In this document: positions 4,879-5,763 of the stretch, piece after piece
How positions within the stretch are numbered: the first letter of the stretch is position 1
Layout of the letters: each line of letters starts with the position of its first letter
Virus record (IMG/VR): IMGVR_UViG_3300035698_018820
Coordinates: 1 to 23,172 of that record
Strand: one strand, 5' to 3'
Length of the DNA: 23,172 nucleotides
Origin: a virus
Notes under the pieces: generated by a model
Told to the model about the DNA's origin: nothing
Seen by the model: the letters and a program-made list of their open reading frames with translations, nothing else
Database searches by the model: none
Program-made: the position numbers and the translations under genes

Positions 4879-4916
4879 TTTCACTATATTTATATATATA
4901 AATTAATTTAGTGAAA
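4879..4916 (+). promoter_or_regulatory. Long AT hairpin/promoter region ahead of the tmRNA
   Basis: A perfect 8-bp repeat TTTCACTA (4879-4886) and TAGTGAAA (4909-4916) encloses the 16-nt palindrome ATTTATATATATAAAT (4888-4903). TATAAATT (4897-4904) resembles a T4 late promoter. The hairpin ends 11 nt before the P2 strand of the tmRNA. It may hold the promoter, define the 5' end of the precursor RNA, or be a structural stem of it. Confidence 0.4.
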
Positions 4917-4927
4917 TATATTGTGAA

Positions 4928-5108
4928 TTTGATAGGACGTGGGTTCGACTCCCACCAGCTCCACTATTTGGTAGATAAATGTTTTTGGGGCTGCCTTGGA
5001 TTTGACTGTTAAAGAAGTATGGTATATAGAAAATTAATTTAATATACAAAAGGCAATTTTTTGCAAAAGGCAGCATAATTTTATAAGATGAAATTATAAT
5101 GCAGCCCC
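4928..5108 (+). ncRNA. ssrA: Circularly permuted transfer-messenger RNA (two-piece tmRNA)
   Basis: tmRNA rescues stalled ribosomes and adds a degradation tag. Here its 3' half comes first: P2 strand TTTGATAG (4928-4935), GAC, T arm GTGGG-TTCGACT-CCCAC (4939-4955), acceptor CAGCTCC (4956-4962), discriminator A4963, without encoded CCA. After a 23-nt spacer (4964-4986) comes the 5' half: acceptor GGGGCTG (4987-4993), D-like CCTTGGATTTGA, P2 strand CTGTTAAA (5006-5013), a GTATAT/ATATAC stem, then the tag. Acceptor strands pair over 7 bp with one G-T; P2 pairs over 8 bp with two. The best tag frame is GGC at 5052 to TAA at 5078, peptide GNFLQKAA, ending in Ala-Ala as SsrA tags do; a GCA start at 5063 would give AKGSIIL. 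The stop codon lies in a hairpin (5075-5081 with 5091-5097) like P5. A mature form would need cuts in the spacer and CCA addition. No downstream T arm exists, so it is not a one-piece gene. Confidence 0.85.
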
Positions 5109-5135
5109 GATGGAGGCATAATATCCATCATTTTT
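5109..5135 (+). terminator. Rho-independent terminator of the tmRNA gene
   Basis: GATGGA (5109-5114) and TCCATC (5124-5129) form a perfect stem with a 9-nt loop, followed by A and five T's. It directly follows GCAGCCCC and marks the end of the permuted tmRNA transcript. Confidence 0.7.
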
Positions 5136-5157: not shown

Positions 5158-5763
5158 ATGATAAATAACGAAGAAAGAAATAGATTACGTGATATTTTAT
5201 ATCCAATAATGTATGCTATCAATAGACATGATAAAGAAAATAAATTACAATATTGTATAGGTGGTGGAGCTGTTTTAGATACACTTGCTGATAATACAGT
5301 ACATAATGACTTTGATATATTTTTAGGGGATATTACTAATGGAGATTATTTTTATCAAATATTAAATGATATAGGATATTCACAAATATTTCAAAATGAT
5401 TGGGTAAGAAGATTTAGAAGTTATCATAATTATATAGATGTAGCACATTTTAAAAACTTCTCTCCCGTAGAATATGTTTTAAATGTAGATATGACTGTTT
5501 CTGCAGTTTGTATTGACAATGATTATAAATTATACTGTCATCCTGATTTCTTTAATGATATGAGAAGCAGGATTATTAATATCAAATCATTACAAAATAG
5601 AAAAGAAGCTATTAACAAACGAATGAAAAAAATGCAGGCTAAAGGATATACACCAACAGTTCAAGCCAAAAAAATAATACAATTATTTAACAGCAATGGT
5701 GATTATTCTAAATATCTCAAAAGTAATATTGATTATCAAACTCAAATAATTGATCTAATATGA
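5158..5763 (+). CDS. Nucleotidyltransferase (pol-beta superfamily, CCA-transferase-like head)
   Basis: Residues 32-55 read YCIGGGAVLD...HNDFDIFLGD: the Gly-Gly loop (35-37) and the D-x-D metal pair (D51, D53) of the pol-beta nucleotidyltransferase fold, with D111 in VLNVDMTV a plausible third carboxylate. At 201 residues it is shorter than complete tRNA CCA-adding enzymes but carries the head-domain layout; the basic C-terminal helix region (about 145-175) could bind RNA. It could add nucleotides to RNA 3' ends; seven of the eight tRNAs and the tmRNA here lack encoded CCA, and this gene follows the tmRNA. An unrelated NMP-transferring role, as in toxins, remains possible. No Shine-Dalgarno sequence; its stop overlaps the next start (ATGA). 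Confidence 0.75.
   Translation: MINNEERNRLRDILYPIMYAINRHDKENKLQYCIGGGAVLDTLADNTVHNDFDIFLGDITNGDYFYQILNDIGYSQIFQNDWVRRFRSYHNYIDVAHFKNFSPVEYVLNVDMTVSAVCIDNDYKLYCHPDFFNDMRSRIINIKSLQNRKEAINKRMKKMQAKGYTPTVQAKKIIQLFNSNGDYSKYLKSNIDYQTQIIDLI

Follow-up and report, generated by a model that had tools for sequence, protein, structure and literature searches.

Identification of the locus

In the virus fragment analysed here, a stretch of 23,172 nt that we call the window, a T arm and a 3′ acceptor strand lie ahead of the matching 5′ acceptor strand. The original prediction read this arrangement, at 4928–5135, as a circularly permuted tmRNA gene and suggested that the permutation might have arisen independently of those known in bacteria. 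We asked whether the gene is real, where it came from and what its RNA would do.

RF04321, the Rfam covariance model for permuted tmRNA, which has a cut-off of 47 bits, matched the window at 4916–5121 with a score of 64.4 bits (E = 1.4e-10). The match was in the permuted order, by the test that the prediction itself had proposed, and readings of the locus as a standard tmRNA or a plain tRNA were ruled out in the same model search. ARAGORN, suggested as a second check, missed the permuted gene in the window. The features described at the base level (the order of the two halves with 23 nt between them, the acceptor GGGGCTG/CAGCTCC, the eight-pair P2 helix and a tag frame reading GNFLQKAA-stop) were all found as claimed (Table 1). 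Although the elements lie where they had been placed within the predicted span, the RF04321 match begins at 4916, and the gene is likely to extend upstream of 4928. The terminal hairpin with its T5 tract is likewise present and is probably the 3′ end or terminator of the gene, but a consensus terminator scan made no call at this hairpin, which has a loop of 9 nt.

Table 1. Features of the permuted tmRNA locus, in window coordinates.
Feature	Position	Strand	Basis or remarks
Permuted tmRNA gene	4916–5121	+	RF04321 match, 64.4 bits
Candidate hairpin TTTCACTA/TAGTGAAA whose loop could pair with its flank	4881–4922	+	Placed like the Crassvirales pseudoknot
P2 3′ strand (P2′) TTTGATAG	4928–4935	+	8 pairs with 5006–5013
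GAC connector and T arm GTGGG-TTCGACT-CCCAC	4936–4955	+	RF04321 alignment; T arm 4939–4955, stem GTGGG 4939–4943/CCCAC 4951–4955, loop TTCGACT
3′ acceptor strand CAGCTCC (4956–4962) and discriminator A (4963)	4956–4963	+	7 pairs with 4987–4993
Intervening spacer, predicted to be removed	4964–4986	+	23 nt
5′ acceptor strand GGGGCTG	4987–4993	+	Sequence, RF04321 alignment, covariation; RNase P cleavage predicted immediately 5′ of 4987
D-arm analogue with TTTGAC motif, and P2 5′ strand CTGTTAAA	4994–5013	+	Sequence, RF04321 alignment; D motif TTGGATTTGAC 4996–5006, TTTGAC ending at 5006; P2 strand 5006–5013
Tag frame GNFLQKAA-stop, resume codon GGC	5052–5078	+	Read from sequence: GGC AAT TTT TTG CAA AAG GCA GCA TAA
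GCAGCCCC, perfect 8-nt complement of GGGGCTGC (4987–4994)	5101–5108	+	Sequence
Hairpin GATGGA/TCCATC (5109–5129), then T5	5109–5135	+	Sequence

According to the RF04321 alignment, the tRNA-like domain consists of the T arm and a reduced D arm. The strict T-arm signature did not occur in any of 200 shuffles of the window. When the acceptor and P2 pairs were forced, the fold had an energy of −51.4 kcal/mol, compared with −51.7 kcal/mol for the unconstrained optimum; the functional fold is thus within energetic reach. The third acceptor pair is G–U (4989–4960; G3–U70), the element read by alanyl-tRNA synthetase, and no CCA is encoded after the discriminator A4963. The frame is short and ends in Ala-Ala-stop. 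Taken as a whole, the locus is very likely a real permuted tmRNA gene.

Relatives and covariation

Permuted tmRNAs were common in viral contigs, the majority of them encoding CCA and carrying TTCGAC and AND-type tags. Searches for CCA-less permuted genes with TTTGAC yielded about ten distinct contigs, all of which matched RF04321 and all but one above the cut-off. A similarity search started from one of these contigs led to genomes of Crassvirales (cr10_1, cr50_1, cr52_1, cr60_1, cr114_1, cr125_1 and cr130_1) and to Chryseobacterium phage MA9V-3. The genes of these phages, which ARAGORN calls permuted, resemble the window gene in being permuted and CCA-less with mostly GN-type tags; they differ in having spacers of 60–214 nt rather than 23 and in belonging to different types of phage. 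Their database records say only "transfer-messenger RNA, SsrA", a label that conceals the permuted form, and the permutation goes unmentioned in the paper on MA9V-3 (PMC13120357). A scan of genome contigs for CCA-less TTTGAC permuted genes with spacers of 72–102 nt gave no matches.

The 3′ half preceded the 5′ half in 18 phage relatives, with spacers of 20–214 nt among them, and most relatives shared the GGC resume codon and a tag starting with GN or GK. In an alignment of 19 sequences, 96.8% of 342 cells were paired and 12 of the 18 stem pairs had changed on both sides. Doubly changed cells numbered 52 against 12.1 expected, a value reached by none of 500 shuffles, and the signal was lost when the alignment was slid by one column. 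Pairing was complete (100%) in the acceptor and T stems; the P2 helix was paired in 90% of cells, with double changes in five of its six pairs, and the G–U pair was invariant. Rows had been admitted only if they had a complete T stem and six or more of the seven acceptor pairs, and for P2 the register with the best pairing was taken. Despite this selection, the variety of compensating acceptor changes across the spacer (CTG/CAG, CAT/ATG, GTG/CAC, TTG/CAA and CGTG/CACG) is hard to explain without pairing between the two halves.

These observations bear on whether the locus is a product of chance or assembly, either because a tRNA-like T arm happens to adjoin a hairpin that has nothing to do with it or because a one-piece tmRNA was misjoined. 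The window is a single 23-kb metagenomic fragment, which would leave room for such an error. We nevertheless consider it highly improbable in view of the RF04321 E-value and the recurrence of the same order in contigs sequenced independently and in complete phage genomes, among them that of an isolate, where the two halves covary across the spacer.

Other elements were seen at these loci. Upstream of P2′ in L085, L224, L246 and L249 there is a conserved hairpin whose loop pairs with its own 3′ flank (CACAATA-TAAGA-TATTGTG-TCTTA), and the cr50_1 version carries the compensating changes CATAGTA/TACTATG. By its sequence, the hairpin of L085, L224, L246 and L249 is likely to form a pseudoknot in the acceptor piece. 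The layout of 4881–4922 in the window matches that of L085, L224, cr10_1 and cr50_1. About 25% of shuffles of this AT-rich window reached its score, so a pseudoknot here is no more than possible. A number of Crassvirales genomes and one related contig have RAGATH-9, -20 and -22 RNAs, scoring above their Rfam cut-offs, immediately ahead of the permuted tmRNA (L245 589–757, L252 337–504, L236 141–329, L249 207–373 and L250 333–435). In cr114_1 (L252 861–932), and probably also in cr130_1 (L244), the spacer of the permuted tmRNA contains a tRNA gene; a tRNA within a tmRNA spacer has been reported as unique to one nominally archaeal record (PMC11915505).

Genome context

The window is a linear fragment that encodes baseplate wedge proteins, a lytic transglycosylase, a peptide deformylase and tRNAs. 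Among annotated phages, the baseplate protein was closest to those of Microcystis phage Mel-JY01 (47%) and Flavobacterium phage immuto (41%). For another structural gene, the relatives were these same two phages. The two genes together suggest that the window comes from a relative of Immutovirus with a contractile tail. A search for the baseplate protein in genome contigs gave no match. The ORFs that were scanned against Pfam contained no SmpB domain, the fragment being only part of a genome.

Neither the tRNAs nor the tmRNA of this phage encode CCA. Directly downstream of the tmRNA, the ORF at 5158–5763 contains the motif IGGGAVLD...DFDIF, suggestive of a nucleotidyltransferase that might perhaps act in CCA addition. 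The assignment was set aside, as the ORF had no phage or IMG/VR relatives, no match in Pfam, PHROG or PDB, and a structure model with a pLDDT of 36. An HNH endonuclease ORF, possibly a mobile element, is located among the tRNA genes at 921–1439.

Lineage and origin

The original prediction implied that two-piece tmRNAs are rare in phages. This was overstated: in 2022, 53 of 133 unique phage tmRNAs were already known to be of this kind, mostly from marine or aquatic phages (PMC9004378). Phage-encoded permuted tmRNA is thus not new in itself, and the new part is the group without CCA. The tmRNAs of Melnitz and other marine phages (PMC9004378) share with the window gene the two-piece form. That of Melnitz is alphaproteobacterial-like, whereas in the window gene CCA is not encoded, the D arm contains TTTGAC and the resume codon is for Gly.

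RF04321 was merged from the alpha, beta and cyano models, and its seed contains only alphaproteobacterial, betaproteobacterial and cyanobacterial sequences (PMC11915505). The window gene and its relatives resemble this family in the permuted order, the pairs of the tRNA-like domain and the position of the tag frame in the second piece. Their scores were 50–73 bits, with one at 46.5 against the cut-off of 47, far below those of three CCA-encoding viral permuted controls, which scored 112–145 bits and passed the beta model. None of the clade models (RF01849, RF01850 and RF01851, for alpha, beta and cyano) was passed by the window gene or by the CCA-less relatives tested. The best for the window was the beta model, at 41.9 bits over the tRNA-like half only, against its cut-off of 84 bits. 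Membership of the alpha, beta or cyanobacterial clade was therefore rejected at the model cut-offs.

The CCA-less group is marked by TTTGAC in the D arm and tags of the Gly-Asn or Gly-Lys type, and was found in Crassvirales, MA9V-3, environmental phages and the contractile-tail phage of the window. Its tRNA-like domain resembles that of one-piece Bacteroidota-type tmRNAs (e.g. L008, L040, L041, L094 and L174), which likewise have the TTTGAC D motif, mostly a GGC resume codon and a T-arm region like GTTTGGACGAGGG. The Bacteroidota-type genes differ in their standard order, their length of about 370–400 nt and a tag that is usually GENNYALAA or similar.

In a tree of the tRNA-like domain (66 rows and 58 columns, with few resolved forks and a bootstrap that had not settled), the window fell in a supported set (96/98) with Crassvirales genes, grouping with cr10_1, cr50_1 and cr130_1. 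On these 58 columns, a single clade of all permuted genes was rejected (p-AU 0.0086), a clade of CCA-less permuted and TTTGAC one-piece genes was not (p-AU 0.13), and a clade of CCA-less permuted genes alone was weakly rejected (p-AU 0.036–0.047), which may reflect several permutations or simply poor resolution. The nearest one-piece gene in the tree came from a phage with a related baseplate gene. Of 79 records carrying such a baseplate gene, the majority of them short fragments, two had a one-piece tmRNA above the cut-off and none had a permuted one.

Could an AT-rich phage instead have acquired a two-piece tmRNA of the alphaproteobacterial or cyanobacterial kind, as Melnitz or the cyanophages did, with divergence thereafter? 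The abundance of CCA-encoding TTCGAC permuted tmRNAs in viral contigs and the partial beta-model score fit this explanation. It is at odds with the scores of the group below the cut-off in all three clade models, with the lack of CCA, with the features shared with one-piece Bacteroidota-type tmRNAs (TTTGAC, GGACGAGGG and Gly tags), and with the rejection of one clade for all permuted genes; we consider it unlikely. An independent permutation is likely, given the failure of the clade models, the likeness to one-piece Bacteroidota-type genes, the one-piece genes of related phages and the rejected joint clade, although the tree, with its 58 columns, is suggestive of it rather than proof. From the sequences, we favor, with some reservation, an origin of the group from a one-piece Bacteroidota-type tmRNA, separate from the alpha, beta and cyanobacterial forms. 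The occurrence of the gene in Crassvirales and in an Immutovirus-related contractile-tail phage suggests that it has most likely spread between unrelated phages.

The group is undescribed or little described, and its origin is probably separate. In the open-licence literature on tmRNA in Crassvirales, crAss-like phages or Bacteroidetes, no paper described it by title or abstract. The database of PMC11915505 catalogues 79 phage tmRNAs, and some of the Crassvirales genes may be among them.

Proposed mode of action

We put the probability at roughly 85% that the locus encodes a small circularly permuted tmRNA that acts as two base-paired RNA pieces in the following way. The gene order, the acceptor stem, T arm and P2, the D motif, G3–U70 and the tag frame are apparent from sequence and covariation; by analogy with tmRNA biology, we infer the processing into two pieces, the charging and the tagging. 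A single precursor would be transcribed from the permuted gene; cleavage by RNase P ahead of 4987 and trimming by a 3′ processing enzyme back to A4963 would follow. A tRNA nucleotidyltransferase would then add CCA, because none is encoded, and alanyl-tRNA synthetase would charge the acceptor piece via G3–U70. With host SmpB, the tmRNA would enter stalled ribosomes, Ala-GNFLQKAA would be added, and translation would end at the TAA of the tag, leaving the ribosome freed and the peptide marked.

The GCAGCCCC element was sought in other permuted genes and was absent there. It could compete with the acceptor stem, and its complementarity to GGGGCTGC could represent a precursor switch, a protective pairing of the ends, or chance.

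This self-complementarity would also suit a decoy or remnant, an RNA made without tagging that titrates SmpB or alanyl-tRNA synthetase or else inhibits the host tmRNA. Such a role would agree with the very small size of the gene (about 206 nt), with a pseudoknot candidate that does not rise above shuffles, and with a tag ending in KAA rather than the common LAA or VAA, and there is a precedent in the CDS-less tmRNA of phage DS6A, as cited in PMC11915505. However, the tag frame is intact, with its stop and Gly resume codon; the acceptor, T arm, G3–U70 and P2 are all preserved; and the tag frames of the relatives are varied yet open. We therefore regard a decoy or remnant as improbable, and favor a tmRNA active in tagging.

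On a wider scale, the odds seem to us about even that one or more additional tmRNA permutations took place within Bacteroidota phages, giving a two-piece lineage restricted to phages that passes between crAss-like phages and those with contractile tails, with one-piece genes retained by the hosts. If so, there would be a two-piece lineage confined to phages beyond the three described in bacteria, including in Crassvirales, which are abundant in human gut viromes. Phages would then be drivers of tmRNA gene rearrangement, and a single cell would naturally contain two tmRNA architectures with different tags, one from the phage and one from the host.
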